DNA from: Tetracentron sinense
Taxonomy: Eukaryota > Streptophyta > Magnoliopsida > Trochodendrales > Trochodendraceae
Direction of reading: 5' to 3'
Assembly (NCBI GenBank): GCA_015143295.1
Contig: CM026567.1
Location: 10,620,416-10,684,415, forward strand
Length of the DNA: 64,000 bases
Part shown: one piece after another, positions 5,897 through 54,499 of the stretch
Layout: each line of letters opens with the position of its first letter
How positions within the stretch are numbered: position 1 is the first letter of the stretch
Program-made: the position numbers and the translations under genes
Notes under the pieces: model-generated
The model's input: the letters and a program-made list of their open reading frames with translations, nothing else
What the model was told of the DNA's origin: nothing
Databases searched by the model: none

Positions 5897-6109
5897 TGTA
5901 GAGCCCCGGACCTTTTCACATTTAATGCATGACACTTTCGTTGCCATTTTGCCTTTAAAGAGGTATAATTAATAAATAAGGAAGAAATTGAAAATTCTGA
6001 AATGTCAGAAATGTTCATTTTCGAAGTACGAACCCAACGCAAGTTGAATCGTCAAAATCGGACGAACGAGTCAAAAGTTATGGCCAAAACAGTTTGGACC
6101 TGCAGACTA

Positions 6110-6291
6110 CGATCGCTCGGTCCATGGAGCGATCGATCGGTCCAAAACCGATCGCTTGGTAGCTATCGACTGGTCAAGATTTTTGTATGGGGAAATTTTC
6201 CAGAGAGTTGATTTTTGGTCGAGAGCTCGGTCAACAAACCGATCGCTCGGTAGGCAACCGATCGATCGGTCATTAACACCGATCGCTCGGT
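6110..6291 (+). promoter_or_regulatory. CGATCG palindrome cluster in LTR A (5' LTR)
   Basis: About seven copies of CCGATCGATCGGT or CCGATCGCTCGGT, some degraded, surround a core near 6185-6210 containing TATGGGGAAATTTTCC. A TTAAGAGTTTAACCC stretch lies about 65 bp downstream. The same layout is found in every long LTR here and in the SIRE-type LTR at 21570-21753. Promoter-proximal function is inferred from position. Confidence 0.7.
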
Positions 6292-7212
6292 ACTCGCGTT
6301 TTTGCAGAAATTTCAGTAAGGGTATTATGGTCTTTTAGTCGGTTCACTCTTACCTTAAGAGTTTAACCCGAGCCTTTAGGGCTTCATTTCGACACTTAGA
6401 GAGATTGGGAGATAAGAAGAGTGGAGAGGGCGATTCCTAAACCTAGGGTTTCTATTTTTGGAGAGAAATCAAGGGGTTTGTGAACCCACACTCAACTCAA
6501 GCCCATTTTTCTTCAAGATCAAGGCACAAGCTCGTGAGGAGCATCTCCTCAAGCTAGGGCAGCAACTCACGGCCGTTTTTGGAAGGGGATTTCTTCCTCA
6601 CTTGATCAAGGTCAGTACTTCTTGCTACCCTCCTAGTTATAGTTCCTTCTTTTACTTTATTTCTCTTTGTTTTCCTTCATTTACACATGTGCTATGAGAT
6701 GGATGGGTGTGAATGGTGAATGGAGACAGAATTGACGATTGGATGCCGTGTGAAATGATGTGATGAATGAAATGAGGAGGGCATTGTATCCATAATGAAC
6801 GGACATGTATGATGTGAGCATAACCCACCTAGAAAATCATGATTTAGGTTTAAATGAATAATGTATAATGAACACACCATGTTTGATGAAATGCCAAAGT
6901 GAATAAAGTGAGTTGTAAATTAGGAAATGCATGCCTAATAAATTATGGATATTGCTAGGGCCTATGATAGTGTGTTTTCTTGCTTTCCCTAAATGATGTG
7001 AATATTACATTGCTCAATCATTGATGTTATATGTGTTGTGAATTACCCAAATGTCATATTTAAATTTAAATGCAAGTATGTACACGATTCCCACGAGCAC
7101 GGCATGCATGACATGATTTACCGAGGTTTTCAAGAACATGGTTAGAGGTGGGACATATCCTACGATATGTTTTACCTCGCTTTTCACAAGAAAACAAGAA
7201 CCAACATTCCAC

Positions 7213-7350
7213 GAGGGGTCTCCCCTCACTCACAAGTGCATATCATGAAGAAGGGCCTCCCTTCCCTCGCAAGTACATACATATCATGAAGAAGGGTCTC
7301 CCTTCCCTCTCAAGTGCATTGCATAAAGAAGGGTCTCCCTTCCCTCTCAA
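7213..7350 (+). repeat. Hairpin array in LTR A
   Basis: Four units each hold a short perfect hairpin: GAGGGG-TCT-CCCCTC at 7213-7227, then GAAGGG-CCT-CCCTTC once and GAAGGG-TCT-CCCTTC twice, ending at 7342. The stems separate ATCATGAA/TCAAGTGCAT spacers. The first unit differs from the rest by a paired change (A-T to G-C), so pairing is kept. Confidence 0.85.
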
Positions 7351-7729
7351 GGCATCTCTCAAGCGCATCTCACAAGGATATCTCACAAGTGTATCTCACA
7401 AGTTACATGATCACAAGCAAGCATGCATGACATGCATGACATGACACGTACGACATGCTTGACAAGATCAAGCAAGACAAACACGACAAGCTTTCAAGTA
7501 CGAAAAGATATTTCAAGCCAAGTCAAGTGCATGATGTTTTCAAGAGGTTTTATCAGCTTTCTACGAAATACAAGCATGATTATAAATTGCTTTACTTCCT
7601 TGTATGATATGAATTGTTTCCGTCTAACATATATGAATTGCTCTTGATTTATGTATTGCCATTTTTATGCTATGACTATTGGTTAGTATTTGGTACCCGC
7701 TGAGTATTCCATGCTCAGCCGTACTTCTT

Positions 7730-7849
7730 ATGTCGGCAAGTTCTGAGGGAGCTGCTGCTCCATTTGATGTTTGTGCTCCTGGTCCATGGGTGGAGGAGGA
7801 GTATGTTGAGAAGCCTTTGGAGGAACCTCCCGTAGAGGGTTATCAGTAG
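7730..7849 (+). CDS. Conserved LTR small ORF, family A type (39 aa)
   Basis: ATG begins ten bases after a GCTGAG-N9-CTCAGC stem-loop. The peptide starts MSASSEGAAAPFDVC, has the core APGPWVEEEYVE and ends EGYQ with TAG. The other A-family copies (31437-31556, 40762-40881, 57348-57467) have the same length and stop, with MSAG at the start. Families B and C carry the same start and core with different tails and many synonymous changes, which suggests protein-level constraint. The peptide is acidic, with no signal peptide or membrane segment. It lies in the LTR, so it would sit in the leader of the element's RNA and in its 3' end. Function unknown; a regulatory upstream ORF or an acidic activator-like peptide are guesses. 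Confidence 0.55.
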   Translation: MSASSEGAAAPFDVCAPGPWVEEEYVEKPLEEPPVEGYQ

Positions 7850-8143
7850 GCGGTGTTAGATTCTGAGTGGATTAGCTGTGGGTGAGCATGAGTGATTATA
7901 TCCATGTATTTTGGCGGGCATGTCCGCACTTTCTTTGTTTTAATTTCTTTATATTAAACTTGGACCATGTGTATATACTTAGAGGTTGTTAGACTTCCGC
8001 TGTGCTTTATGGTTATGTTTCCACTATAATGTCCTCTATTGTATATGCTCTGTGGGTTTTGCAGGTTGGTTGTCAAGCAAGTCATGATTAGTCGTCCAAA
8101 GTTCACTCTAACTCCTAGGGTGGGTTTTGGGTCTCGACAGAAG

Positions 8144-8155: not shown

Positions 8156-8373
8156 TTAGGTGTAGCATCCCGGACTTTTTCATCCTTAATGAATTGCACC
8201 TTCGTAGTTAATTGGCCGTTTTTTTAGTCTAATTAATAAATAAGGGAGAAATTGGAAATTCCGAAACATCAGAAATGTTCATTTTCGAAAGACGGATCCA
8301 ACGCAAGTTGAATCGTCGAAATCCGACGAGCGAGTCAAAAGATATGGTCAAAACAGTCCAGACATACAGAGCA

Positions 8374-8542
8374 CCGATCGCTCGGTCCAGTCAGCGATCG
8401 ATTGATCGGTAGCTATCGCACGATCAGAAATTTTGTATGGGGAAATTTTCCAGAGAGTGAGTTTTTGACCGGTCGATCGGTCATAAACAACGATCGCTCG
8501 GTAGGCAACCGATCGATCGGTCATAACCACCGATCGCTCGGT
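8374..8542 (+). promoter_or_regulatory. CGATCG palindrome cluster in solo LTR B
   Basis: Boxes of CCGATCGATCGGT/CCGATCGCTCGGT flank a TATGGGGAAATTTTCC core, as in LTR A. One box has decayed to CGATTGATCGGT. A CCCATAAGGG segment lies downstream and may serve as a TATA-like element (inferred). Confidence 0.7.
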
Positions 8543-9375
8543 CTTCGCGTTTTTGCAGAAATTTCAGTAAGGGTGTTTTCGTCTTTTGGGTGTTAAACCC
8601 TTACCCATAAGGGTTTGCTCGACCCTTTGAGCCCTCATTCACAACCCTTAGACATTTTGAGAGCTAGAGAGTGAGAAGAAGAGGGTTTTGACCTAGGGTT
8701 TCCATTGAGGAAGAAATCAAAGGGGTGGACCATCCTGGGTTGTCCTCAAACTTGGATTTGCTTCAAGTTCAAGGCTTGGATTCTCCAAATCCAACCTCAA
8801 GCTCGTGTGGAGTACCTCTTCCAAGCTAGGGCAGCGTTTCTACATCATCCTCAAGGATTTTCTTTCCATTTTCAAGGTTAGTACACTCTTCCTAGTTACT
8901 TTGGTAATAACCTAGGATTTTTCTAAGTAAATATGTATTAGATCTTCCCCATTGCTCCCTTCTGTTGGTATATGCTAAATCCCTAAAACATAAACAAGAT
9001 AATACAAACAAATGGTGGAATGTATGAATGGATGAGGAGTGGAGGCGATTGGATGCCATGTTGTGATGTGTTGAATGATGAGAAAAATGGTGGAAGGGCA
9101 TATTACGCATAATGAACACACCCCAAGTGTTTGATGAAATGTTCGAATGAGAAAATATGAAATAACTAAAGGTAAAAAGGTTGAATACCACATGTTTGAT
9201 AGAATGCATGAATAAACTAAGATTTGAAAGCATGAGTCACATAAATGTCCCCCATTTGGCAAGTTGTATGCATGTGTTTATTTCGCTTCTTAAATTCTCA
9301 TGTGAGTTGGAAATTGTTAAAATGCTATATGTCATCATAATTTCACGATTGCTATGCACGAGCACATATGTAGAT

Positions 9376-9851
9376 GGAGGATATTGTCAAGAAGGTTGGT
9401 AGCCCAGGATTATGTGGGTGCTAACCTCTGGCTCATAAGAAACGTATTGCATTGTCAAGGGGGTTGGTAGCCCAGGGATCATGCGGGTACTAACCCCTGG
9501 CTCATAAGAAAGGACTCGGAAATGTTGCACTGTCAAGGAGGTTGGTAGCCCCGGTTAAGGGTGCTAACCTCTGGCTCATAAGAAAGGAAATAGTATTGTC
9601 AAGAAGGTTGGTAGCCCCGGTTAAGGGTGCTAACCTCTGGCTCATAAGTAAGGTATCCTACTGTCAAGGAGGCTGGTAGCCCAGGGATGTGCGGGTGCTA
9701 GCCTCTGGCTCATAAGAAGTGTATTGTACTGTCAAGGGGGTTGGTAGCCCAGGGATGTGCGGGTGCTAACCCCTGGCTCATAAGAAAGGTATTGTACTGT
9801 CAAGGAGGTTGGTAGCCCAGGGATATGCGGGTGCTAACCTCTGGCTCATAA
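9376..9851 (+). repeat. Seven-unit hairpin array in solo LTR B
   Basis: Units of 65-80 bp carry AAGGAGGTTGGTAGCCC, a variable loop and GGGTGCTAACCTCTGGCTC. The two halves pair: GAGGTT with AACCTC, AGC with GCT, CC with GG. Where the left arm reads GGGGTT the right reads AACCCC (units 2 and 6), and where it reads GGCTGG the right reads CTAGCC (unit 5). All seven units keep pairing at the variable sites. Confidence 0.85.
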
Positions 9852-10068
9852 GAAATATTAAAAGGAGAACTCAAAGAGGAATTGTATGATGCATAGATAT
9901 GTTTTAGTTTCATAATAATTATGACTTGATAAAATGTTTATGTATAAGGTTGCTAGAAATGATTATGAACTATACTCCTCCCATTTCTTGTATATGATGT
10001 TGTTCGTTATTACCATTGTTAGTTAGGGGCTTGTACTCGCTGAGTATTCCATGCTCAGCCGTACTTTC

Positions 10069-10224
10069 ATGTCGGCAGGTAGCCGAGTCCCTCTCGACAT
10101 TTGTGATCCGGGTCCTTGGATAGAGGAGGACTATGACGAGGAGGAACCTTATGAGGATCTAGTAGTTGAGCCTCAGGCGGAGGCGAGAGACTTAGACCAT
10201 TGGCCCCACGGGGATGACTATTGA
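10069..10224 (+). CDS. Conserved LTR small ORF, family B type (51 aa)
   Basis: ATG follows the GCTGAG/CTCAGC stem-loop at 10039-10059 by ten bases. The peptide begins MSAGSRVPLDICDPGPW, continues IEEDYDEEEPYEDL and ends in DHWPHGDDY before TGA. It is strongly acidic with two tryptophans. The copy at 35022-35177 is intact with three residue differences (S5T, D23G, D50G); the copy at 63391-63546 corresponds to this one. The start MSAG and PGPW[VI]EE[ED]Y core are shared with families A and C. Function unknown. Confidence 0.55.
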   Translation: MSAGSRVPLDICDPGPWIEEDYDEEEPYEDLVVEPQAEARDLDHWPHGDDY

Positions 10225-10507
10225 GCGAGACAGCGTTGTATTTTGTCTTTTGTATTTTGTTAGGTGGGCCTGTCCACCTTAGACTTAGACGTGTTGTATT
10301 TATGTTAACTTGGAATACTACATTTTGGATCATTATAAAGAAAAGAAAATTTTAGTTTTCGCTTCCGCAAATTATGTTTAGCTTCCGCGCTCTGATTATC
10401 ATTGTTTAGTACCTTATTTATCTTGTTCACTACAGGATGGTTTGGCAGGTTTGTATAGCCCACCTAAAGTATCCCTAAACTCCTAGGGGGTATTTTGGGG
10501 CGTGACA

Positions 10508-10852
10508 TTAGGCTTTAGGTCTCTAGGGTCACTTAGAATCTTATACCACCGCTTGACAAGAGCATATGTTAGGAAACAAGTTAGGAAGGAAGTAAGTCGG
10601 GAGCGAGTCTGGTTCCAAGTGTAAGACTAAACTTTAGTCTTAGTCTAAAATGGTTGCTTTAACCAATTACGGGTCCTAGGTACGCTAGAACACTAAAGTA
10701 TAAGTATAATGTGATGAATACTCTGATCACTTGATGTGATGTGTATTAGTATTATACAACTAATACATATTGAATTATTGTGAAATGGCATTGAAATAAA
10801 TTGTGGTTTCAAGTGAGACTCATGTGGTGTTATTATTCTCAGGACTTTTGTC
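10508..10852 (+). other. Leader of element A between primer site and gag
   Basis: Starts with the right-hand TTAGG duplication of solo LTR B and runs to the gag start. No ORF above chance. It is AT-rich near 10720-10850. Its inverted counterpart is 62773-63105. Confidence 0.75.
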
Positions 10853-13800
10853 ATGAGGCGGGGCACACGGGGTCGTGGACCACATACCAGAGCTTCATCT
10901 TCTTCCAGAGATGAGGATGAGCAGCCGGACCTCTCCCAGGTCTTAGGCTCTATTGCTGAGACACTCGCCATCCTGGCGGCTCGGCAAACTATACCGGCAT
11001 CAGCGGCACCTACTCCACCGCCCGCAGCTCCAGTACATCGTACCGCTGGAGTTGAGGCATTCAGGAGATTGAGGCCTCCACCATTCCATAGGAGTGTGGA
11101 CCCTCTTGCTGCGGAGGCGTGGATCCTCCAGATGGAGAAGATTTTCACAGTCCTCTCACCCACAGAGGAGGAGAGAGTAGCATGGGCAGCTTTCATGCTA
11201 GAGGGCGAAGCCCACCATTGGTGGTTTTCCGCGTTGAGGACGCGAGATTTGACCATGTAGGGTCAACCTTGGACTTGGGATGAGTTCAAGGACGCTTTTT
11301 ACAAGAAGTATTTTCCGATTGGAGCACGGGAAAAGAAAGAGAGAGAATTCATCAACCTCGAGCAAGGTTTGATGTCGGTGGCACAATACGAGGCCAAGTT
11401 CTCGGAGCTATCACGCTTCGCGACTCACATGGTTGCCACCGAGGCAATGAAGGCAAGAAGGTTTGAGCAAGGGCTCAAAGATGTTATCATGGAGAAGGTT
11501 TCGGTTTTCAGACATGCTACCTACCCTGAGGTAGTAGACAAGGCCTTATTGGTCGAGGCCAATTCAGAGACAGTGTCCAAGAAGAGGGAGTTGGCGAGAG
11601 GCCAAGCTAGTAGTTCAGCACCTTCAGAGAGGCGGGCTCGTACCGGCCCTTATCAGTATACATGGCCAACACCACTGATGAGGCTGACTTATGCGCCTCC
11701 AGCTCCACGGCAGTATGTGCCTCAGGCACCGCGACCTCAGGCTCTTTCGGCCCCACGGCCTGTTGCACCTCAAACGATGAGGTATGCTCCACCTCCGGCC
11801 CCTCCGACCTATACACACGAGGTCTGCACTTCGTGCGGCCGAAGGCACCCGGTAGGAGATTGCCGAAGGGCATCGGGTGGATGCTTTCATTGTGGTCACC
11901 AGGGCCATATGATCAGGGATTGCCCCAGTCGGCATTTACCAGGCTAGTCTCAGGGGATCAGGCCCCCAGCACGCCCAGTAGGATCATATCAGGCGTCATC
12001 CCAGACTACCCGGCCTACACCTTTGCCTCGCCAGGCGAACCAGGGGTGAGTTTTTGCCTTAACAGAGGGTGATGCACTTGCATCTGACGATGTAGTGCAA
12101 GGAACCCTATTAGTCAATGAGTATTTGACTCGAGTGTTGATTGATACCGGGTCTACTCATTCATTTGTCTCGCCGAGTTTTTTAGAAGGATTTTCTGTAG
12201 AGCCAAGTCAGCTAGAACCGGAGTTAGCCATTTCGACTCCTCTCGGCAAAACAGTATTGGCAAATAAAGTGTATAGAAATAGTGTGGTCCAAGTTGGAAG
12301 CCACGAGTTGGCGGTTGATCTCATCGTCCTGGGATTCCAAGACTTTGATGTTATATTGGGAATGGATTGGTTAGCAGCACATCATAGGCATGTAGCTTGC
12401 TTTGAGAAGATGGTACTCTTCAAGCCGGTAGAAGGAAAACCATTTCACTTTCGGGGGTTAAAAAGTAGAGATATCGCTCGTTTTGCGGCATTGAGCTTAG
12501 CGAACCTCGAGGCAAAGGACTCTTTGACTATTCCGGTCGTGAGTAAATTCCTGGATGTATTTCCAGAGGAGTTGCCAGGATTACCTCCAGACAGGGAGAT
12601 TGAGTTTGTGATTGAGCTTACACCAGGCACAGCTCCCATCTCTCGGGCTCCGTATAGAATGGCCCCGGTAGAACTCAAGGAGTTGAAGACTCAGTTGGAG
12701 GAATTGCAAGGCCTTGGTTTCATTCGACCAAGTGTCTCACCGTGGGGTGCCCCGGTGTTGTTTGTTAAGAAGAAAGATGGTTCGATGCGGATGTGCGTCG
12801 ATTACCGGCAATTGAACAAGATCACTATAAAGAATAGGTATCCATTGCCTAGAATTGATGATTTGTTCGATCAGTTGAAGGGAGCGAGATTTTTCTCAAA
12901 GATAGACCTTCGATCGGGTTATCACCAGTTGAAGATTAAGGTGGAAGATGTTCCCAAAACTGCTTTCAGGACTCGGTATGGACACTACGAGTTCTTGGTG
13001 ATGCCTTTTGGACTCACGAACGCGCCGGCAGCCTTTATGGATTTGATGAACCGGGTGTTCCGGCCATATCTTGATAGGTGCGTGATTGTATTTGTTGATG
13101 ACATTTCGGTCTATTCCCAGACACGGGAAGATCACACACGCGACCTACGCCTTGCTTTGGAAATGCTAAGAGAGCACAAGCTATACGCCAAACTTAGCAA
13201 GTGTGAGTTTTGGTTGGAAGAGGTGGCATTCCTAGGCCACGTTGTTTCTGCAGAAGGTATCTCAGTAGATCCAAAGAAGATCGAAGCAGTTATGAGTTGG
13301 GCAAGGCCCAAGAGTGTTACCGAGATACGCAGCTTTCTTGGGTTGGCAGGCTACTACAGGAGATTCGTAGAGGGTTTCTCTAGCCTTGCAGCACCGCTCA
13401 CTTACCTGACAAGGAAGAACGCCAAGTTTGTATGGAGTGATAAGTGCGAGATCAATTTCACGGAATTGAAGAAGAGGCTTACTACAGCCCCTGTTCTTAC
13501 TGTGCCATCTGGACCTTATGGGTATGAGGTGTATAGTGATGCCTCACACGTTGGACTTGGGTGTGTACTCATGCAGCACAAGAAAATCATTGCCTATGCA
13601 TCAAGGCAATTGAAGGAGCATGAGAAGAATTATCCCACGCACGACTTGGAGCTTGCGGCGGTCGTGTTTGCACTTAAGATTTGGCGTCATTACCTTTATG
13701 GGGTGGAGTTCTATGTGTTTACCGATCACAAGAGTCTCAAGTATCTCTTTTCCCAAAAGGAGCTGAATCTAAGGCAACGACGTTGGATGGAATTTTTGAA

Positions 13801-14280
13801 AGACTATGATTGTACCATTCAACACCACCCGGGTAAAGCAAATGTAGTGGCTGATGCTTTGAGTAGAAGACCTCCGGGGTTATTAGCATGCATGTTAGTG
13901 CGGGAATGGAAGCTACTTGAAGACTTGGAAAATCTGGACATTAGTGTGAATGACTCTGTCCGTAGTCCTATCTTGGCAAATGTCACGGTTCGGCCATACA
14001 TTATAGAATTGATCCAAGAATACCAAGCCACGGATGCTGAATTGTTGGCTTATCGGGACAAGGAAGTTGCTAAGGGTAGTGAGGACTTCTCTCTCACTAG
14101 CCAAGGTGCTATCACATTCAAAGGAAGGCTGTGTGTCCCAGCCAATGCAGATCTTCGGAGGGAGATTATGGATGAAGCCCACCGGTCAAAGTACACTGTG
14201 CATCCAGGGGGTACGAAGATGTACCGGAACCTCAAGAGTCACTTTTGGTGGCGGAATATGAAGAGGGAGGTTGCGGAATA
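10853..14280 (+). pseudogene. gag-pol of Tekay-type element A, plus copy (broken)
   Basis: One reading frame encodes gag (MRRGTRGRGPHTRAS), a CCHC knuckle ([14 protein letters not shown], near 11880), protease ([13 protein letters not shown]), reverse transcriptase with FVDD near 13090 in place of the usual YVDD, RNase H ([10 protein letters not shown]) and the start of integrase ([13 protein letters not shown]). Three in-frame stops break it: TAG at 11258-11260 (also in the minus copy, hence older), TAG at 11945-11947 (CAG in the minus copy) and TGA at 12047-12049 (CGA there). Integrase ends at 14280, where a solo LTR splits its zinc-binding domain; an open frame running on into the LTR is artificial. 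Most differences from the minus copy are transitions. Confidence 0.93.
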
Positions 14281-15574
14281 TGTAGAGCCCCGGACCTTTT
14301 CACATTTATGCATGACCCTTCGTAGCCATTTTTCCTTTAAAGTAATGCAATTAATAAATAAGGAAGAAATTGGAAATTCCGAAACGTCAGAAATGTGCGT
14401 TTTCGAAAGACGAACCCACGCAAGTTGAATCGTCGAAATCCGACGAGCGAGTCAAAAGATATGGTCAAAACAGTCCAGACATACAGAGAACCGATCGCTC
14501 GGTCCAGTCAGCGATCGATCGGTCCATAACCGATCGATCGGTAGCTATCGCGCGGTCAGAAAGTTTGTATGGGGAAATTTTCCAGAGAGTGAGTTTTTGA
14601 CGGCTCGATCGGTCATAAACACCGATCGCTCGGTAGGCAACCGATCGATCGGTCATAACCACCGATCGCTCGGTCCTTGCGTTTTACAGAATTTTCACTA
14701 AGGGCATTTTCGGCATTCGGGTGTTATACCCTTTCTCATATAGGATTACCCCGAGCCTTTAGGGCTCATTCTCAACCCTTAGAAGATTTGGAGATTAGAG
14801 AGAAAGGAGAAGGTTTTCCAAAACCTAGGTTTCCATTTGGAGAGAAATCAAAGGGTTTTGAGACCCTAGATCATCCTCAAGTACGTTTTCCTTCAAGATC
14901 TCGGCTCAGCTCGTGTGGAGCTCGTGTTCCAAGCTAGGGCAGCAACTCACGGTCGTTTGGAAAGGGGATTCTTCCCTCACTGATCAAGGTCGGTACTTTT
15001 TACTACCCTCCTCGTTATAGCCTATCTCATTTCCTTATTCTTCTGTTTTCCTTCATATAATCATATATCTATATTATGAGAATGGGTGGTATGTATGGTA
15101 CATGGAGATGGAATGTTGGCGAATTGATGCCGTGTGGATGATGTAACACTGAATGGGGAAGGGCATTGTACTCATAATAGGGAAACTACCGTGTATGTGA
15201 GTATAAAACCCCCTGAAAAGCATGTTGTAGGGTTTAATAAATACTGAATGTCCCTGTTTAGCTGACATGGACCAAGGTAATAAAATGAATATAATTAAGA
15301 AAAATGCATGTTTAGGTTTTTGAAATGCTAGGGTTTCTGGAGTGTGATTGGTCGCTTTCCCTTAAATGATATAAATATTAATTGCCCACATCATTGATTT
15401 TATGTGTTATGAATTACTCCAATTGCCATATTTAATTCCAAATGCAGTATCCACGACCTCACAGCACGCATCATTACATGATTTACCGCGTTTTCAAGAA
15501 TGGATTTCGAGGTGGGGGCCCTATCGTACGATATGGGTTACCTTCGCTTTTTGGCAAGGACAAACATCATGCAT
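14281..15574 (+). repeat. Solo LTR A in integrase (left part; cut by gap)
   Basis: TGTAGAGCCCCGGACC starts directly after GAATA (14276-14280), the same site and target bases as the complete solo LTR at 57044-59344 on the other strand. Compared with that copy this one has several one-base losses in runs after about 14940, and it stops at the gap where the GAAGGG hairpin array should start. Confidence 0.9.
14491..14674 (+). promoter_or_regulatory. CGATCG palindrome cluster in solo LTR A (+)
   Basis: Seven boxes in order, nearly all intact, flanking the TATGGGGAAATTTTCC core. Counterpart of 58951-59134. Confidence 0.7.
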
Positions 15575-15674
15575 NNNNNNNNNNNNNNNNNNNNNNNNNN
15601 NNNNNNNNNNNNNNNNNNNNNNNNNNNNNNNNNNNNNNNNNNNNNNNNNNNNNNNNNNNNNNNNNNNNNNNNNN
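15575..15674. other. Assembly gap of exactly 100 N
   Basis: Round-number gap. The left side is LTR A on the plus strand, cut at its hairpin array. The right side is LTR B on the minus strand, inside its array. The two are not natural neighbours in any other copy in this window, so the join and the real distance are unknown. Confidence 0.98.
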
Positions 15675-17398
15675 GCCCAGCCCACGCCCGCAGGCCAGGG
15701 GTTAGCCAATCAGCACATCCCTGGGCTACCAACCCCCTTGACAGTTACCAATACCTTTCTTATGAAGTCCAGGGGTTAGCCATCCCGCTCCCATCCCTGG
15801 GTACCCAACCCCCTTAACTAGCTACAATACCTTTCTTATAGAGCCAGGTGCGTTGACGCACTCCGCCACATCCCTGGTGCTACCAACCTCCCCTTGGACC
15901 GAGATACCTTACCCTTCTTATTGAGCCAGAGCGTTAGACAACCCTTAACCGGGGCTACCCAACCTCTCTTGACAATATCATTTCCTTTCTTATGAGCCAG
16001 AGGTTAGCACCCTTAACCGGGGCTACAACCTCCTTGACAGTGCAACATTTCCGAGTCCTTTCTTATGAGCCAGGGGTTAGCACCCGCACATCCCTGGGCT
16101 ACCAACCCCCCTTGACAATACAATACGTTTCTTATGAGCCAGAGGTAGCACCCGCATAATCCTGGGCTACAACCTCCTTGACAATATCCTCCATCTACAT
16201 ATGTGCTCGGCATAGCAATCGTGAAATTATGATGACATATAGCATTTTAACAATTCCCAACTCACATGAGAATTTAAGAAGCGAAATAAACACATGCATA
16301 CAACTTACCAAATGGGGAACATTTATGTGACTCATGCTTTCAAATCTTAGTTTATTCATGCATTCTATCAAACATGTGGTATTCAACCTTTTTACCTTTA
16401 GTTATTTCATATTTTCTCATTCGAACATTTCATCAAACACTGGGGTGTATTCATTATGCGTAATATGCCCTTCCACCATTTTTCCCATCATTCAACACAT
16501 CACAACATGGCATCCAATCGCCTCCACTCCTCATCCATTCATACATTCCACCATTTGTTTGTATTATCTTGTTTATGTTTTAGGGATTTAGCATATACCA
16601 ACACAAGGGAGCAATGGGGAAGATCCAACACATTTTCTTAGAAAAAAATCCTAGGTTATTACCAAAGTAACTAGGAAGAGTGTACTAACCTTGGAAAGGG
16701 AAAGGAAATCCTTGAGGATGATGTAGAAACGCTGCCCTAGCTTGGACGAGGTACTCCACACGAGCTTGAGGTTGGATTTGGAGAATCCAAGCCTTTAGAA
16801 CGGTTCTAGGGTTCTAAAACCCTTGATTCTCTCAAGTGGAAAACCCTAGATGTAAATCCCCCTTCTCTTCTCTTCTTCTCTCTCAAAACCTTCTAAGTGA
16901 GGTGAATGAGGGCTCAAAGGGTCGAGCAAACCCTTATGGGTAAGGGTTTAACACCCAAAAGACGAAAACGCCCTTACTGAAATTTCTGCAAAAACGCGAA
17001 GACCGAGCGATCGGTGGTTATGACCGATCGATCGGTTGCCTACCGAGCGATCGGTGTTATTGACCGATCGATCGGTCAAAAACTCACTCTCTGGAAAATT
17101 TCCCCATACAAAATTTCTGACCGTGCGATAGCTACCGATCGATCGGTTATGGACCGATCGATCGCTGACTGGACCGAGCGATCGGTGCTCTGTATGTCTG
17201 GACTGTTTTGACCATATCTTTTGACTCGCTCGTCGGATTTCGACGATTCAACTTGCGTTGGATCCGTCTTTCGAAAACAAACATTTCTGACGTTTCGAAA
17301 TTTCCGATTTCTCCCTTATTTATTAATTAGACTACAAAAACGGCCAATTAGCTACGAAGGTGCTATTCATTAAGGATGAAAAAGTCCGGGGTGCTACA
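15675..17398 (-). repeat. Partial LTR B (minus strand)
   Basis: Reverse complement of LTR B from inside its hairpin array (15675-16186) to its start TGTAGCACCCCGGAC, ending at 17398. It is inserted in LTR C; the bases after it are ATGCT. The right half is very close to the copy at 33056-35462. The part nearest the gap has many small insertions and losses compared with other arrays. The portion with the small ORF is absent. Confidence 0.88.
17003..17186 (-). promoter_or_regulatory. CGATCG palindrome cluster in partial LTR B
   Basis: Seven boxes, CCGAGCGATCGGT or CCGATCGATCGGT, on both sides of GGAAAATTTCCCC. Same arrangement as 33269-33452 in the opposite orientation. Confidence 0.7.
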
Positions 17399-17967
17399 AT
17401 GCTTGTATTGTGTCATGCCCTATATTGTTTCTTTGTGATGTTTCTATTACTGCTTGTATGATATCACTATTGTGTGTTTTATTATTGTTATGGTCTGCTA
17501 GTAGCTTGTACTCGCTGAGTATTCCATGCTCAGCCGTACTTTCATGTCGGCAGGTACTGAGGGAGCCCTCGACCCGGAGCCTTGGGTCGAGGAAGAGTAT
17601 ATAGAGGAGAGAGAGCCGGCTATTCCATTACAGTCTCAGGAGGACCGAGACCTCGATGCGTGGCCATACCTCGACTACTGTTGAGGGGAGAGTATGAGAG
17701 GGTCTTGTGTATTTTGATGTTTTGATAGGTGGGTCTGTCCACCTTAGACTTAGACATGTCTTGTATTTATGTTAACTTGGAATACTATTTTGGATCATTA
17801 GAAGAAATGAAAATTTGTTTACGCTTCCGCATATATGATAGCTTCCGCGCTCTGATTATCGTTGTTAGTATTGTATTTTATCTTGTGCATTACAGGATGG
17901 TTTGATAGGTACGCAGTGTGACACCTCAAATATCCCTAAACTCCTAGGGGTATTTCGGGGCGTTACA
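17399..17967 (+). repeat. LTR C, 3' part
   Basis: Matches the end of the LTR at 35927-36977 and ends GGGGCGTTACA. It contains the stem-loop (17514-17534) and small ORF (17544-17684). It abuts SIRE-type gag at 17968, flank GCAGT. Its left part lies beyond the LTR B insertion and the gap. Confidence 0.85.
17544..17684 (+). CDS. Conserved LTR small ORF, family C type (46 aa)
   Basis: ATG lies nine to ten bases after GCTGAG-N9-CTCAGC. The peptide starts MSAGTEGALDPEPW, continues VEEEYIEEREPAIP and ends RDLDAWPYLDYC before TGA. Its tail (RDLD-x-WP) aligns with family B (RDLDHWP), and its start (MSAG-x-EGA) with family A, so it links the two. Codons differ silently among the families. The copy at 36547-36687 has one in-frame TAA. 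Function unknown. Confidence 0.55.
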   Translation: MSAGTEGALDPEPWVEEEYIEEREPAIPLQSQEDRDLDAWPYLDYC

Positions 17968-20768
17968 GCAGTAGAAGGCTTTCCTAGTTTGGGAACACCT
18001 CTCACAAGCTCTTGCTTAGAGATTTTACATAGGTCTTTGAAGTTCATGTGACCTAGTCTTCGGTGCCACAAATCAACCTCCTCAATTCTAGTCTTATAAC
18101 AGACATTTGAGGGAATAGGACTGGGAGTTAAGCCGTAGCAATTGTCAGTGGTTCTCAATCCTTCTAGAACACACTTACCTTTACCATTAATGACTAAGCA
18201 TTTATTTTGGGTAAAGTGCACAGCATGATTATCATCACATAGTTGACTTATGCTAATTAAATTAGCTTTCAGTCCTTCAATAAACAAGGCATCTTTCAAT
18301 TTAGGTATGCCTGGTGAATCGATGATACCCTTTCCTTTGACTAAAGACTTGCTTCCATCACCAAAAGTAACAGTCCCATCAGGACAGTCCTCAAATTGAA
18401 TAAATAAGGACTTGTTACCTGTCATATGCCGAGAACACCCACTGTCGAAGTACCACATTTCTGTGTTTTGGGCTTTCAAGGTAGTATGAATGACAAAGCA
18501 CTTAAGGTCTTCCTTTCTTACATACACAGTCTTTAAACTTTGTTTAGATCTTTGATCATTAATCTGTGTAGTAGAGACCTTTTTCCTTTTTGTCCTCCTT
18601 GACCTTTTTCTGTTTTGTATAGTTCTAGTTTTTTGATAAGTCAAATTATTTCCTCTTAAATAATCATTTGGAATAAATTGACCAGTTCTTGTCCTAGAGA
18701 TTTGAGCAATTCTATTAACATCATCGCTCAACATTCTAGACTTTTCAGCTAGAACCTGAATCTGCCTTTGAAGAGTCCCTTGATTTTGATTTTGGTTCCA
18801 TGAACCATTTCGGGGAGCTCTCCTAAATGCATTACAATTAGGTTGAATGTGACCTCTCACACCACAAAAGTGACATGTGGGTATGAATCTTGGTAGAGGA
18901 GGAAGATTTCTTCTAACTGGAATTTGATTCCTTAAAGCATTCACTCTAGGAGCTGTATTTCTAGGCTTTACAAAATTTGTATAAGCCTTAGTACTTGATG
19001 TAGAAGGTAAATTTTCTTTAGGTTCAGAATGTATTGGCTCAAACACTGCACTACCCATTGTTCCAACAGCTAAAGGACCAGTTGGTGTGTCAACATGTCC
19101 TATCCCAGATCTACTAGAATTTGATCCATACTTTCTAACTAATTCATCTAGGCAGCTGGTGTTACCAAACATTCTTACTTCTTTTTCAAGAGTATAGACC
19201 TTCTGAATCAAGTCAGTCTTGTCTTTAAGGGTAATTTGGTGTTCTTTTTCAAGAAATTTCACCTTATCAACAAGAGAGACTTTAAAAGTTTCCAGCTCCA
19301 TTTGCAGAGTTCTTAACTCTTCAATTTCTTTCATGGAAGTGTCTCTTTCAACTTCTAATTTTCTGACCACATTAGTCAATGAGACATTCTCTTCCAAAAG
19401 ACATTGAACTTTTATAACAAATGCTTCTTTTTCATTTTCCAACTGACTAACTAGTGCACTCTTCTCTTCTGCTACTAGTTTACAGATATCTCTTTCATTT
19501 TGAATGAGTTTGAGTTTTTTGCTCAAAGAGATTTTTGTTTTAGTCAGTTTCAAAATTTCAGCATACAACTTATCATAAGTTGTTTTCAAATCTTCATCAC
19601 TTTCAGAGTCAGTTTGACTCTTCTGTAAGTCATCACTAGACTCAGTATGAATACTCTCATCACTTCTATCCTTTTCATCAACCGCAGAGGTAGTCTCAAG
19701 AATCCCAGAAAGGGAAACAGTGAAAGCCGTATGATTTCCAGTATCTTCACTTGAAGAGGAACTGTCCAATTCTTCATTCTCGGAATCACTGTCATCCCAG
19801 CAGGCATTCATCACCTTGCCCTTACTCTTCTTCTTGTTAGGACAATTAGGTGAAATATGACCGAAGCCATGACATTCATAACATTGAACACCTTGGGATT
19901 TCTTGTCGCCACTCTTGGAATTTTTCTTGTTTTCCCAGGGCTTAGACTTTGACTTCTCAAAAGATTTTCCTCCCTGTTTGGGATTAAATCTCTTTTTCAT
20001 TCTAAAAAATTTTCGAAATTTTTTAACGAAAAGAGCCATTTCTTCCTCATTCATTTCTCCATCACTGTCATCCTCATCCAAAGTTTCCTTGATGGTTTTC
20101 AAGGCTAAAGATTTATTCTTCTTGGATGGACGTAGATTGAGTTCATAGGTTTGGAGTGATCCAACCAATTCCTCAATCTTCAGAGAGTCAACATTTTTAC
20201 TCTCTTCGATTGCAGTGACTTTGGGTTGAAATCTCTCTGGGAGAGATCTAAGAACTTTTCTAACTATTTTGGACTCAGATATTTTCTCACCTAAATTGAA
20301 ACTAGCATTGACAATGTCACTAAGTTTTGCATAGAATTCATCAAAAGTGTCATTGTCTTCCATGTTTAAATGTTCAAATTTGGTGGTTAACATTTGGAGT
20401 TTTGAGATTTTAACAGTGGTAGTACCCTCATGGGTAATTTCAAGAATGTCCCAAGCCTCCTTTGCTGTTTCACATGAAGAAATTCGTCTGAATTCCTCAG
20501 CAGTGACTGCAGTAAAGATAGCATTGAGACCTTTAGTGTTCCATCCACTTGAATCAAGCTCTTCTCTGGTCCATTCATCAGAATATTTGACGACAGTCAA
20601 ATCACCTACAGTTTTTACGGGCGTAGTCCACCCATTCTGTATAGACATCCAAATTCTCTCGTCAAGAGATTTGAGAAAGGCTCTCATTCTAGCTTTCCAG
20701 TATGCATAATTATTTCCATCAAAAAGTGGGGGACGAGTGACGGATCCTCCTTCTCTTAGAGTACTCAT
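17968..20768 (-). pseudogene. SIRE-type Ty1 gag-protease region, 3' truncated
   Basis: The minus-strand frame is open from ATG at 20768 to the LTR C junction. It starts MSTLREGGSVTRPPLFDGNNY, a SIRE-like gag. In order: the gag domain with WDILEITHEGTT, a CCHC knuckle CYECHGFGHISPNC (about 19870), an acidic linker, a long heptad-like coiled coil (19500-19200), a second knuckle CHFCGVRGHIQPNC (about 18860), a protease-like WYFDSGCSRHMTGN and a pre-integrase LWHRRLGHMNF. Integrase, RT, RNase H and 3' LTR are cut away by LTR C. The residues an open frame adds past 17968 come from LTR C. No internal stop is seen, so this part looks young. Confidence 0.9.
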
Positions 20769-20821
20769 GATCACGGATAATACAGGATCACACTTAAGGG
20801 ATTAGCCTTATCAGTGAACAA

Positions 20822-29718: not shown

Positions 29719-31135
29719 TGTAGCAACCTGAACTTTTCTATATTTAATGAATAGCACTTTCGTGCCTAATTGGTCTTCCTCGTAGTCAAATTAATAAATA
29801 AGGGAGAAATTAGAAATTCCGAAATATCAGAAATGTTCATTTTCAAAAGACGAACCCAACGCAAGTTGAATCGTCGAAATCGGTCGAGCGAGTCAAAAGA
29901 TATGGCCAAAACAGTCCAGACATGCAGAGCACCGATCGCTCGGTCCAGTCAGAGATCGATCGATCCAAAACTGATCGATCGGTAGCTATCGGACGGTCAA
30001 AACTTTTGTATGAGAAAATTTTCCAGAGAGTAGTTTTTTGACCAGTCGCTCGGTCAGAGTACCGATCGCTCGGTAGGCAACCGATCGATCGGTCATAACC
30101 ACCGATCGCTCGGTCCCCGTGTTTTTGCAGAAATTTTTGTAAGGGCGTTTTTGTCTTTTGGGTGTTAAACCCTTTCTTATAAGGATAGGCCCGAGCCTTA
30201 GGGATTATTTACAACACTTAGAAGCTTTTGAGAGTTAGAGAGAGAGGAGAAGAGACTCTAACCTAGGGTTTTGATTTTGAGAAGGAATCAAAGGGTTTGA
30301 CAACCCTAGATCATCCTCAAACTTGGATTGCTTCAAGTTCAAGGCTCGAGCTCGTGGGGGATCTCGTTCTCAAGCTAGGGCAGCATTCTCCAAGGTATTT
30401 CAAGAGGGTTTTCTTCTCCAAACCAAGTATTCCTCAAGAAAAGGTTCCTCCTTTCAAGTTGGAGCTTAAATCAAGGTTCCTACCAAGATCAAGCCTTGAT
30501 CTAAGGTTAGTACACCCTACTAACTTACCCTAGCAATAAATCTAAGTTTTCTTTATGAAATGTGATTTGTGCTATTATGTTTGCTTTCTTGTGAAATGTA
30601 TCATCCCTAATAAATATAAACAAGATAAAGAAATGGTATGGATGTTTGGATGGATGTTGGATGTGGCGATTGGATGCCGAATGGGTGATGTATGGTATGT
30701 GTGGGTCGTGGATTAGAAAATGGAGGATGGGCATTACACAAATAATAAACTTACCTTGTGCGATTGAATGTAAAATATGCACTAAAAAGGAGAAAATGAA
30801 CAATGAGGAAACTTGCATGCTAAGTGTTTGACAAAATACCTAAACTATGAAATAATGATTTAAATGAAGAAATGGAAAGGGGCCTTATGCATGTATTCTC
30901 ATGAACGATGAATGGATTTAAATACCATGTTGATAACTCAAATTCTCATATGCATATATTGTGAATTGAATGGTGATGTCATACCTCTCTTATTATCCTT
31001 ATTCCATGGTTGTCACGATTAACATGTACACTAGCACGCATGATAGCATGAACCGAGATTTCAAGAGCATGTGCATATAATAACCAACAAGAAAATATTG
31101 CATGTCAAGGAGGTTGGTAGCCCAGGGACATTCGG
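29719..31135 (+). repeat. LTR C (3' LTR of Tekay-C), first part
   Basis: Begins TGTAGCAACCTGAAC and stops at 31135 inside the first GAGGTTGGTAGCCCAGGG hairpin unit, where solo LTR A is inserted (TTCGG left, TTTGG right). Includes CTTATAAGG near 30177 as a possible TATA element. Confidence 0.88.
29932..30114 (+). promoter_or_regulatory. CGATCG palindrome cluster in LTR C
   Basis: Seven boxes, two decayed (GATCGATCGATCC and CTGATCGATCGGT), around a TATGAGAAAATTTTCC core. CTTATAAGG follows about 65 bp downstream. Confidence 0.7.
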
Positions 31136-31436
31136 TGTCGCGACCCAAAACCCACCCTAGGAGTTAGAGTGAATCGTGGACGACTAAATCATGACTTACA
31201 TGACTTGCTTGACAAACCACCTGCAAAACACCCACAGAGCATATACAATAGAGGATAACATCGGAAGCATAACTATAAGACACAGCGGAAGTCTAACAAA
31301 CCTCTAAGTATATACACATGGTCCAAGTTTTAATACAAAGAAATCAAAACAAGAAAGTACGGACATGCCCGCCAAAATACATGGATATAATCACTCATGC
31401 TTACCCACAGCTAATCCACTCAGAATCTAACACCAC

Positions 31437-31556
31437 CTACTGATAACCCTCTACGGGAGGTTCCTCCAAAGGCTCCTGGACGTACTCCTCCTCCACCCAT
31501 GGACCAGGAGCACAAACATCAAATGGAGCAATAGCTCCCTCAGAACCTGCTGACAT
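31437..31556 (-). CDS. Conserved LTR small ORF, family A type (39 aa)
   Basis: Intact minus-strand frame, ATG at 31556, TAG at 31439-31437. Begins MSAGSEGAIAPFDVC, core PGPWVEEEYVQEPL, end VEGYQ. It is preceded by the stem-loop at 31567-31587. Same length as the copies at 7730, 40762 and 57348, although this LTR belongs to a more diverged subfamily with another hairpin array. Function unknown. Confidence 0.55.
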   Translation of the reverse strand: MSAGSEGAIAPFDVCAPGPWVEEEYVQEPLEEPPVEGYQ

Positions 31557-31899
31557 AAGAAGTACGGCTGAGCATGGAATACTCAGCGGGTACTAAATAC
31601 TAACCAACAGTTATAGCAAGAGATAGCAATGCATACCCAGGAAACAATATAGATATATATGAATTAGGAATAGTTAATATCATACAAAGAAATAAGGAAA
31701 TTCATAATCATGCTTGCAGTTCATGAAAAGCCGATAAAATCCTTGAAAAACACCATGCACCTGACTTGACTTAAAATACCCTTCGCGTAATTGGGAACTT
31801 ATTTACCGTGTCATGCTTGTATCATGCGTGTCATGTCATGCTATGCGTGTCATGCGTGTATCATGCTTGCTTATTCGGAATTTAAACATGTTCACATGC

Positions 31900-32094
31900 C
31901 TAGTTGCCGTTCATAGCCCGTCGCACCTAGTACCCTGTACACTTGAATGATATGCCTAGTTGCCGTTCATAGTCCATCACAACTAGTATCCTATATACTG
32001 AATGATATGCCTAGTTGCCATTCATAGTCCGTCGCAACTAGCATCCATGCGAAATGTGTATGCCTAGTTGCCGTTCATAGCCCGTCGCAACTAG
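31900..32094 (-). repeat. Four 31-nt hairpins (CTAGTTGC/GCAACTAG)
   Basis: Units at 31900-31930, 31956-31986, 32011-32041 and 32064-32094. Each has CTAGTTG(C) at one side and (G)CAACTAG at the other, 15-17 nt loops of the TTCATAG type, and 22-25 nt spacers. The first unit has one stem mismatch. It occupies the place held by the GAAGGG array in other A copies. Confidence 0.85.
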
Positions 32095-33268
32095 CATCCA
32101 TGCATGTCATGCCATGCCTTGACTGTCATGAGATGCTATGCCATGCGTGTAATGCGATGCGATGCCATGCGTGTGATGCGATGGGATGAGAGACCCTTCC
32201 CTATGCAATGCATGATCATCTTGTCCTTGCCAAAAGCGAAGTGAAACATATCGTAGGATATGCTCCACCTCTACATCTCGTCCATGAAAACATCGGTAAA
32301 TCACGTCGTTGCATGCCGTGCTCGTGTAATCGTGTACACACTTGCGATGGAAATTAAATATGACATTTTGGGGAATTCACAATACATTGCACATTACCAT
32401 ATATACAAGTAATAAATTAAACAATTTAGGGAAAGCGCGAAAACACACTATCATAACCTTAGCAATTTCCATAAATGTTTAAGCATGCATTTTCTTTATT
32501 TATTATTCTTTTCATTCATCTCGGCATTTCATCAAACATGGTGTGTTCATTATTGATTTACCCTACAACATGCTTTTCTAGATGGATTTTACTCAAATCA
32601 TGCATGTATGTTCATTATTGGAACAATGCCCTCCCCATTTTAATCATCACAACACAACCATTGGCATCCAATCGCCCATTCCATCTCGATTCACCATTCA
32701 CAACCATCCATCTCATAGCACATGTGTAAATAAAGGAAAACAAAGGGAAATAAAGGGAAAAGAGGAACTATAACTAGGAGGGTAGCAAGAAGCACCGACC
32801 TTGAACAATGAGGGGAGAAACCCCTTTCCAAAACGACCATGTAGCTACTGCCCTAGCTTGGAGAACGCTCTCCACGAGTGTTTGAGCCGTGATCTTGGAG
32901 AAGAGCCAAGCTTGAAGTAATCTAGGGTCTCAAAACCCTTTGATTTCTCTTCCAAAGACAAGCCCTAGCTTGGAATCGCCTTCTCCCCTTTCTCCTATTC
33001 TCTCAAACTCTCTAAGTGTCGAATGATGCCCTAAAGGCTTGGGCAAGACTCTTAATGTAGCACCCCGGACTTTTTCATCCTTAATGAATAGCACCTTTGT
33101 AGCTAATTGGCCGTTTTTGTAGTCTAATTAATAAATAAGGGAGAAATCGGAAATTCCGAAACGTCAGAAATGTTCCTTTTCGAAAGACGGATCCAACGCA
33201 AGTTGAATCGTCGAAATCCGACGAGCGAGTCAAAAGATATGGTCAAAACAGTCCAGACATACAGAGCA

Positions 33269-33452
33269 CCGATCGCTCGGTCCAGTCAGCGATCGATCGG
33301 TCCATAACCGATCGATCGGTAGCTATCGCACGGTCAGAAATTTTGTATGGGGAAATTTTCCAGAGAGTGAGTTTTTGACCGATCAATCGGTCAATAACAC
33401 CGATCGCTCGGTAGGCAACCGATCGATCGGTCATAACCACCGATCGCTCGGT
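33269..33452 (+). promoter_or_regulatory. CGATCG palindrome cluster in solo LTR B
   Basis: Seven boxes, one changed to CCGATCAATCGGT, around the TATGGGGAAATTTTCC core. Confidence 0.7.
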
Positions 33453-34272
33453 CTTCGCGTTTTTGCAGAAATTTCAGTAAGGGCGTTTTCGTCTTTTGGG
33501 TGTTAAACCCTTACCCATAAGGGTTTGCTCGACCCTTTGAGCCCTCATTCACCTCACTTAGAAGGTTTTGAGAGAGAAGAAGAGAAGAGAAGGGGGATTT
33601 ACATCTAGGGTTTTCCACTTGAGAGAATCAAGGGTTTTAGAACCCTAGAACCGTTCTAAACGCTTGGATTCTCCAAATCCAACCTCAAGCTCGTGTGGAG
33701 TACCTCGTCCAAGCTAGGGCAGCGTTTCTACATCATCCTCAAGGATTTTCTTTCCCTTTCCAAGGTTAGTACACTCTTCCTAGTTACTTTGGTAATAACC
33801 TAGGATTTTTTTCTAAGAAAATGTGTTGGATCTTCCCCATTGCTCCCTTGTGTTGGTATATGCTAAATCCCTAAAACATAAACAAGATAATACAAACAAA
33901 TGGTGGAATGTATGAATGGATGAGGAGTGGAGGCGATTGGATGCCATGTTGTGATGTGTTGAATGATGGGAAAAATGGTGGAAGGGCATATTACGCATAA
34001 TGAATACACCCCAAGTGTTTGATGAAATGTTCGAATGAGAAAATATGAAATAACTAAAGGTAAAAAGGTTGAATACCACATGTTTGATAGAATGCATGAA
34101 TAAACTAAGATTTGAAAGCATGAGTCACATAAATGTTCCCCATTTGGTAAGTTGTATGCATGTGTTTATTTCGCTTCTTAAATTCTCATGTGAGTTGGGA
34201 ATTGTTAAAATGCTATATGTCATCATAATTTCACGATTGCTATGCACGAGCACATATGTAGATGGAGGATAT

Positions 34273-34806
34273 TGTCAAGGAGGTTGGTAGCCCCGGTTAA
34301 GGGTGCTAACCTCTGGCTCATAAGAAACGTATTGTACTGTCAAGGGGGTTGGTAGCCCAGGGATCATGCGGGTACTAACCCCTGGCTCATAAGAAAGGAC
34401 TCGGAAATGTTGCACTGTCAAGGAGGTTGGTAGCCCCGGTTAAGGGTGCTAACCTCTGGCTCATAAGAGAGGAAATGATATTGTCAAGGGGGTTGGTAGC
34501 CCCGGTTAAGGGTGCTAACCTCTGGCTCATAAGAAGGGTAATGTACTGTCAAGGGGGTTGGTAGCCCAGGGATGTGCGGGTGCTAACCCCTGGCTCATAA
34601 GAAAGGTATTGTACTTTCAAGGGGGTTGGTAGCCCAGGGATGTGCGGGTGCTAACCCCTGGCTCATAAGAAAGGTATTGTACTGTCAAGGGGGTTGGTAG
34701 CCCAGGGATGTGCGGGTGCTAACCCCTGGCTCATAAGAAAGGTATTGTACTGTCAAGGAGGTTGGTAGCCCAGGGATATGCGGGTGCTAACCTCTGGCTC
34801 ATAAGA
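34273..34806 (+). repeat. Eight-unit hairpin array in solo LTR B
   Basis: Same hairpin as 9376-9851 with one unit more. At the variable stem position, seven units keep A-T or G-C and one (near 34490) has G opposite T, a G-U pair in RNA. Confidence 0.85.
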
Positions 34807-35021
34807 AATATTAAAAGGACAACTCAAAGAGGAATTGTATGATGCATAGACATGTTTTAGTTGCATAATAATTATGACTTGATAAAATGTTTATGTATGA
34901 GGTTGCTAGAAATGATTATGAACTATACTCCTCCCATTACTTGTATATAATGTTGTTCGTTATTACCATTGTTAGTTAGGGGCTTGTACTCGCTGAGTAT
35001 TCCATGCTCAGCCGTACTTTC

Positions 35022-35177
35022 ATGTCGGCAGGTACCCGAGTCCCTCTCGACATTTGTGATCCGGGTCCTTGGATAGAGGAGGACTATGGCGAGGAGGAAC
35101 CTTATGAGGATCTAGTAGTCGAGCCTCAGGCGGAGGCGAGAGACTTAGACCACTGGCCCCACGGGGATGGCTATTGA
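35022..35177 (+). CDS. Conserved LTR small ORF, family B type (51 aa)
   Basis: Intact. MSAGTRVPLDICDPGPW, then IEEDYGEEEPYEDL, end DHWPHGDGY and TGA. It has the same length as 10069-10224, with S-to-T and two D-to-G differences. The stem-loop at 34992-35012 precedes the ATG. Function unknown. Confidence 0.55.
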   Translation: MSAGTRVPLDICDPGPWIEEDYGEEEPYEDLVVEPQAEARDLDHWPHGDGY

Positions 35178-35532
35178 GCGAGACAGAGTTGTATTTTGTC
35201 TTTTGTATTTTGTTAGGTGGGCCTGTCCACCTTAGACTGAGACGTGTTTTGTATTTATGTTAACTTGGAATACTACATTTTGGATCATTATAAAGAAAAG
35301 AAAATTTTAGTTTTCGCTTCTGCAAATTATGTTTAGCTTCCGCGCTCTGATTATCATTGTTTAGTACCTTATTTATCTTGTTCGTCACAGGATGGTTTGG
35401 CAGGTTTGTATAGTCCACCTAAAGTATCCCTAAACTCCTAGGGGGTATTTTGGGGCGTGACACTTAAGGTAAGAGTAAACCGATCAAAAGACCATAATAC
35501 CCTTACTGAAATTTCTGCAAAAACGCGAGTAC

Positions 35533-54380: not shown

Positions 54381-54499
54381 GACTAGAGGCCAGAGGGACT
54401 GCGAGAGAGAGACGTCGGCGAGCGAGCAGCAACGAGAGGGGAAACCGAGAGAGCAGAGCAGCCGAGAGAGTGAGAGAGCAGAGCAGAGCAGATTAGTCA

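Follow-up and report, generated by a model that had tools for sequence, protein, structure and literature searches.

The window analyzed here, a 64,000-nucleotide stretch of contig CM026567.1 of Tetracentron sinense, is plant repeat DNA carrying nested Ty3 elements. An open gag-pol frame at 62364-59345 (minus strand) encodes gag, protease, RT, RNase H, and integrase zinc-binding domains, and a near copy of it lies at 11261-14278 on the plus strand (98.5% over 1006 residues). Downstream of the former, the segment 57064-55895 supplies the integrase C-terminal domain and, at its end behind the integrase, a chromodomain (PF00385, E 3.3e-06), which marks the element as a chromovirus; presumably it belongs to the Tekay/Del group, a label carried over from the follow-up suggested by an earlier, sequence-only reading of this DNA. 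The LTRs are 2.2-2.5 kb long (seven measured, three of them summed across nested insertions), start with TGTAG, and end with ACA. A primer-binding-like TGGTATCAAAGC directly follows the LTR of copy A1, and a polypurine tract precedes the LTRs of copies A3 and C2 (copy names as in Table 1); A2 (with one mismatch), A4, B1, and B2 are solo LTRs flanked by 5-bp target duplications.

Several further repeats share the window. The LTR of A3 is interrupted by a 13-kb insertion (42191-55299) with Transposase_21 and DUF4218 frames, which we take to be of the CACTA type. An open 978-aa Copia-type gag and pre-integrase frame (17868-20801, minus strand) runs into the C1 LTR, overlapping its end (17967) by about 100 bp, and the region 1229-2071 holds a distant integrase fragment of another Ty3-like element (24.7% over 292 residues). 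In LTRs of the A and B types, a palindromic ACCGATCGATCGGT-like unit recurs in short tandem arrays within the 5' part (e.g., 14489-14675, 17001-17184, 33268-33453, 35530-35605, and 58949-59132). The B LTR has about 3 to 6 copies of a 68-bp tandem repeat upstream of its conserved block (9525-9855, 34410-34808, and 63760-63990), and similar words occur in an 85-bp array of C2 (35963-36204).

Nine LTR copies, falling into three families (A, B, and C), contain a short ORF close to the LTR end (Table 1). The sequence-only reading had listed these nine ORFs, with lengths fixed by family at 39, 51, and 46 aa and with eight of the nine open, and translation bears it out on each point; the one that is not open is the ORF at 36547, which has a TAA in its core. 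The ORF starts 410-441 bp (seven LTRs measured) and stops 283-304 bp (eight LTRs measured) from the LTR end, and a tblastn search of the window with one peptide per family returned the same nine ORFs, all remaining matches having E values of 0.7 or worse. The length of the ORF is ordinary, the plus-strand ATG ORFs of the A4 LTR measuring 74, 72, 54, 42, and 42 aa; hence, the excess over chance reported below lies in the pattern of change and not in ORF length. GC profiles of seven copies show the ORF (52-57% GC) as an island between flanks with 20-45% GC in the 180 nt before it and 25-38% at +180 to +300; plant exons likewise are GC islands between AU-rich flanks. The openness of the frame in solo LTRs, which had been taken as a sign of selection, was indeed seen but is not in itself evidence of it, since such copies may be young.

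Table 1. The LTR-encoded ORFs and the motifs that accompany them (window coordinates)
Feature	Position	Strand	Context or basis
Microprotein ORF A1, 39 aa	7730-7849	+	in 5' LTR 5897-8139
Microprotein ORF A2, 39 aa	31437-31556	-	LTR 31136-33055 + 35463-35926, split by solo LTR B2
Microprotein ORF A3, 39 aa	40762-40881	-	3' LTR 40472-42190 + 55300-55790, split by 13-kb insert
Microprotein ORF A4, 39 aa	57348-57467	-	solo LTR 57044-59344 within pol gene, target duplication TATTC
Microprotein ORF B1, 51 aa	10069-10224	+	solo LTR 8161-10507, target duplication TTAGG
Microprotein ORF B2, 51 aa	35022-35177	+	solo LTR 33056-35462, target duplication CTTAA
Microprotein ORF B3, 51 aa	63391-63546	-	duplicate of B1 insertion
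Microprotein ORF C1, 46 aa	17544-17684	+	LTR end at 17967
ORF C2, TAA in core	36547-36687	+	3' LTR 29719-36977, A2 and B2 nested inside
Hairpin GCTGAGTAT-TCC-ATGCTCAGC before ORF A1	7699-7719	+	motif match
Same hairpin	10039, 17514, 34992, 36517 (1 mismatch)	+	motif match
Same hairpin	31567, 40892 (2 mismatches), 57478, 63556	-	motif match
Weaker second hairpin behind ORF A1	7912-7926	+	folding
TATA-like TATATAC, A1	7972-7978	+	242 nt past ATG; motif match
TATA-like TATATAC, A2	31308-31314	-	motif match
TATA-like TATATAC, A3	40633-40639	-	motif match
TATA-like TATATAC, A4	57216-57222	-	motif match
TATA-like TTATAAAG, B1	10333-10340	+	motif match
TATA-like TTATAAAG, B2	35288-35295	+	motif match
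TATA-like TTATAAAG, B3	63273-63280	-	motif match

These copies are not all independent. The stretches 9615-15574 and 58045-64000 lie in inverse orientation and are 97.7% identical over 5989 columns, nested insertions included, which may reflect an inverted duplication or an assembly artefact. One of the two ends at a 100-N gap (15575-15674). Since they are one stretch copied inversely, B1 and B3, whose ORFs are identical, represent a single insertion; A1 and A3 seem to be the two LTRs of one duplicated element. By this count, the evidence base comprises about seven independent insertions, not nine, in three lineages within one window.

The last ~550 bp of the LTRs were aligned at the nucleotide level with MAFFT, and codon models were fitted by maximum likelihood to eight copies, B3 being dropped because its ORF is identical to that of B1. 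In the codon alignment, family A was truncated at the stop codon, a single gap in C was shifted by one base to the codon edge, and the C2 stop was masked. Omega in the ORF frame is 0.265 (2dlnL 23.58 versus omega = 1; best of eight kappa values), and the five shifted or reverse frames of the same copies give 0.945, 1.992, 1.119, 0.588, and 2.407. None of 400 column shuffles within gap classes reached 0.265 (lowest, 0.428; best signed 2dlnL, 10.4). Further, the 3' block was scanned in all six frames with windows of 120 columns, 210 in total. The top eight, which overlap each other and, like all neighboring windows, are not independent, all overlap the ORF in its own frame and score 25.3-10.8; the best other window scores 10.1, as does the best of 146 windows from the 5' block of the LTR (first 480 columns of that block). 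The null kappa was fixed at 2.5 for both the shuffles and the scan. Under F3X4 codon frequencies, omega is 0.254 (2dlnL 15.5), and under equal frequencies it is 0.314 (19.6). Removal of the first four codons leaves 0.239 (23.8), and removal of these together with the core weakens the signal to 0.403 (7.3). One copy per family yields 0.313 (12.4), and family A alone yields 0.312 (6.1).

Within families, the pairs A3-A4, B1-B2, and C1-C2 differ by 16 silent and 10 nonsilent changes, with the C2 stop counted among the latter and 24.5% silent changes expected (P = 6e-5). Substituting A2-A4 for A3-A4 gives 15 and 12 (P = 5e-4), and the A3-A2 pair alone runs in the opposite direction (1 silent and 4 nonsilent). 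The indels between families within the ORF are all multiples of three (9 in A4-B1; 9, 9, and 3 in A4-C1; and 9, 3, and 3 in B1-C1), and the within-family pairs compared have none there. Behind the ORF, B1 and C1 are separated by indels of 7, 2, 2, 2, 1, 2, 1, 1, 1, and 1, so that 0 of 10 are multiples of three; the corresponding counts are 1 of 10 for A4-B1 and 3 of 10 for A4-C1. Neither a dN/dS near 1, nor frameshifts, nor equal constraint in all frames, outcomes named beforehand as contrary to selection on a peptide, is seen in this window. The proposal of such selection thus gains support here from the frame-specific omega, the shuffles, the scan, and the in-frame indels; it has to be qualified by a stronger nucleotide-level constraint in a hairpin block adjoining the ORF.

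In all nine copies a 9-bp hairpin ends 9-10 nt ahead of the ATG (seven exact, the rest with at most two mismatches; 0 expected), and every hairpin-bearing LTR of the window (9/9) has the ORF, which is open in eight. As RNA, its outer and inner stems are predicted to fold at -15 to -16 kcal/mol, and shuffle tests of three copies gave z scores of -4.9 to -6.8; the full stem is predicted in eight of the nine copies and is weakened in A3. Over nine pairs compared, the 45-bp hairpin block is 84-100% identical (84-96% between families), and the ORF, taken over the length it has in A, reaches 60-67% between families. The ORF exceeds the DNA behind it in A versus B (59.5% versus 51.6%) and in A versus C (66.7% versus 53.3%) but falls below it in B versus C (64.6% and 61.9% versus 82.1%), and within families it is about as conserved as that DNA or a few per cent more so. 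Judged from these alignments, the strongest constraint of the region is on the hairpin and not on the ORF, and a frame-specific constraint in the ORF coexists with a nucleotide-level constraint in the block. Conservation starts about 40-70 nt before the ATG, with the sequence further upstream having diverged: in A1-A2, A1-A4, A2-A4, and C1-C2 the upstream DNA is 57-69% identical versus 98-100% for the hairpin block. The young pairs A1-A3 and B1-B2 display no conservation step upstream of the ORF.

A weaker second hairpin occurs 37-63 nt past the stop in all nine copies, with a 4-bp stem in family A, a 6-bp stem in the other two families, and z scores of -0.5 to -2.7 (mononucleotide shuffles, nine copies). 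One of its stem pairs is altered on both sides between A and B/C; as this amounts to one paired change at most, we do not regard it as a proven structure and claim no function for it. The fold of the whole region in B1 (491 nt) has a z score of -0.06, and Rfam recognized no family in the window at gathering scores. The exact hairpin was not found in a collection of viral contigs, in which two gag-pol scans likewise found no relative. A looser form of the hairpin matched 20 loci in genome contigs, all bacterial and none with the ORF start behind it (0/20), and we dismissed these matches as chance.

The peptide is invariant at MSA, P, P, W, E, E, and Y in an alignment of seven copies (excluding B3 and C2 with its interrupted frame), with the invariant residues lying at the N-terminus and in the core and not at the C-terminus. 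Its conserved motifs are PW[VI]EE[ED]Y and, in B and C, DLDxWP. It had been described as acidic with one or two tryptophans, and this is accurate: pI is 4.05 (one copy per family), the charge is about -10 to -15, and there is one tryptophan in A and two in B and C. The difference stems from a TAG found in all four A copies where B and C read on, with loss of the tail bearing the second tryptophan. Behind this TAG, family A has LDSEW (LDSKW in A4) in place of RDLDxW, and its tail shows, over the four copies, three replacements, one stop-to-stop change, and no silent change, a pattern that gives no hint of ongoing constraint. Hence, read-through of the TAG is not supported. AlphaFold gave no confident fold (pLDDT 66 and pTM 0.16 from a seven-row alignment), which does not establish disorder. 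Three peptides hit no Pfam family at E values up to 10 and no PHROGs family; the single PDB match (peptide B, E 0.94) was discarded as chance. A search of 5.8 billion proteins with peptides B and C yielded no candidate; many plant gag-pol proteins are present in that database, with Solanum and Tanacetum among the top-scoring ones, but short unannotated ORFs are unlikely to be, so the negative carries little weight. We also set aside descent from gag or pol, as the peptides have no match elsewhere in the window by tblastn.

The position of the ORF in the transcript can be approached through motif matches. A downstream TATA-like box stands 242-245 nt from the ATG in A (4/4) and 265-267 nt from it in B (3/3), which places it 168-181 bp from the LTR end (six measured). 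C1 and C2 lack such a box at the aligned place, with C2 having TATATA at +222, about 20 nt closer to the ORF. TATA-like strings also occur upstream, at -149 (A1 and A3), -176 and -105 (A4), -103 (A2), -126 (B1), and -78 (B2); their places are not homologous among the copies, and C2 lacks them. The downstream box, at a matching place in seven of the nine copies, is thus the better conserved. By these matches, the ORF likely lies in U3, but R might instead begin where conservation sets in, 40-70 nt ahead of the ATG. The ATG has a poor context, with C or T at -3 and T at +4, which favors a special RNA or weak expression. Moreover, in all nine copies the hairpin itself contains an ATG, which in B and C lies 18 nt upstream of the ORF start and in frame with it and in A is out of frame, and 6 to 11 other ATGs occur in the 200 nt before the ORF (seven LTRs). 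Acceptor-like CAGG is found 332-379 nt past the ATG in 9/9 copies (e.g., from 8062 in A1 and 10433 in B1), and donor-like CAGGT is found at codons 3-4 in 8/9. A leader intron removing the ORF is possible on the sequence.

Several other readings of these data deserve consideration. Transcription might start upstream of the ORF, R having its start close to where the conserved block begins. The ORF would then be a leader uORF, and the peptide and hairpin would tune the translation or packaging of the gag-pol RNA, in the manner of conserved-peptide uORFs. Such an arrangement would account for the onset of conservation before the ATG, the upstream TATA-like strings, and a stable hairpin beside the start codon. 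We nevertheless think it rather unlikely: those strings are nonhomologous and missing from C2, whereas the downstream box keeps its place in most copies; the many preceding ATGs are a further difficulty, and the invariant residues are N-terminal and in the core rather than C-terminal.

It could also be argued that there is no peptide at all and that a nucleotide-level constraint, such as a hairpin, promoter, or dimerization or packaging signal, surrounds a fortuitous ORF. The hairpin block is, after all, the most conserved part of the region, the DNA behind the ORF rivals the ORF within families and surpasses it in B versus C, the ORF is not unusually long, and only about seven insertions are available. 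Constraint on DNA or RNA is, however, not expected to produce the frame-specific omega, the results of the shuffles and the scan, or the in-frame indels, and the signal is undiminished without the first four codons, which renders this reading improbable. Least probable of all, in our estimate, is that the peptide was needed by the ancestor of the three families and is now decaying. The TAG shared by the A copies, with its replacement-only tail, and the TAA of C2 have that appearance, but the silent excess within families and the omega of family A alone speak against it.

LTRs generally count as regulatory DNA, and annotation of coding sequence usually passes over them. Coding frames inside the LTR of a retroelement have a parallel in MMTV Sag and Rem, which are longer proteins than the LTR microprotein. 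As described in passages of PMC3840357, these are encoded in the 3' LTR; unlike the present ORFs, they belong to an animal retrovirus and have known RNAs, and a relation to our peptides was sought via Pfam, where the three gave no family. According to parts of a review of plant LTR retrotransposons (PMC7264820), aORFs such as Grande gene23 and those of RIRE2, Retand, and Athila resemble the ORF found here in being additional to gag-pol, kept in family copies, and mostly without known homologues. They differ in being internal to the element, in most cases behind pol and ahead of the 3' LTR, whereas the present ORF is within the LTR in all nine cases, is thereby doubled, is kept in solo LTRs, and spans 39-51 aa. 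The sunflower Tekay element has a further extra ORF in the chromovirus lineage, a 5' aORF named for its place 5' of gag-pol, with an RNA-silencing role proposed in the abstract for such proteins; this one is 402 aa long and is not placed in the LTR by the passages of PMC11728184.

Short ORFs of other kinds offer partial parallels. The shunt uORFs of pararetroviruses likewise pair a short ORF with a stable stem in a plant reverse-transcribing element, but there, per the relevant section of PMC5902531, the uORF ends a few nucleotides before the stem, and its peptide is dispensable and not conserved. In the LTRs, by contrast, the strong stem lies ahead of the ORF (9/9), the peptide is conserved, and the stem behind the ORF is weak and 37-63 nt away. 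Plant conserved-peptide uORFs, as portrayed in excerpts of PMC2075485, are comparable in that a short peptide is under selection, and the LTR ORF shows such peptide-level constraint; they reside in the leaders of host genes. The LTR ORF has TATA-like strings on both sides, the downstream one being the better conserved. The passages of a paper on LTR motifs (PMC11656987) do not mention ORFs, and those of a grape peptidomics study (PMC9070638) link unconventional peptides with LTR retrotransposons in general. The earlier reading, which knew of no description of such an LTR microprotein, agrees with our literature searches: among the open-access papers listed, we recognized from titles and the beginnings of abstracts no account of a small ORF inside plant LTRs.

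Taking these findings together, we propose, with somewhat more confidence than doubt, that an acidic accessory microprotein of 39-51 aa, likely a ligand of a host factor, is encoded in the LTRs of this chromodomain Ty3 element, probably in U3. Its coding step has in silico backing in the frame, its conservation, and the codon-level constraint. The U3 placement is suggested by the location of the ORF between the fixed hairpin and the TATA-like box, about 290 bp before the LTR end, which makes U3 the most likely assignment; as the ORF is present in both LTRs, the genomic RNA would carry it at its 3' end. Splicing or an internal start could then supply the RNA from which the peptide is made, as happens for retroviral genes of the 3' LTR. 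Given the lack of a confident fold in the model, the charge of -10 to -15, and the tryptophan motifs, it is most likely a short-linear-motif ligand of a host protein: probably unstructured, it would bind a host factor via its tryptophan and acid motifs, which we take to resemble Argonaute hooks or acidic activation domains. The transcription or silencing machinery might be guessed as the partner.

If the peptide is indeed selected, its gene would be doubled in every full element and would survive in solo LTRs; at 39-51 aa and with a strong motif, it would be an accessory product of a retrotransposon that lends itself to testing, and the nearly invariant hairpin would offer a possible handle on LTR function. 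One could go further and regard each plant chromovirus LTR, solo ones too, as a small gene for an acidic tryptophan microprotein that counters silencing or drives transcription, perhaps by serving as a ligand of the Argonaute-hook or acidic activation type, and that is paired with a fixed hairpin acting as RNA or DNA. We offer this as a speculation that is unlikely to hold; were it true, thousands of solo LTRs could be peptide genes.
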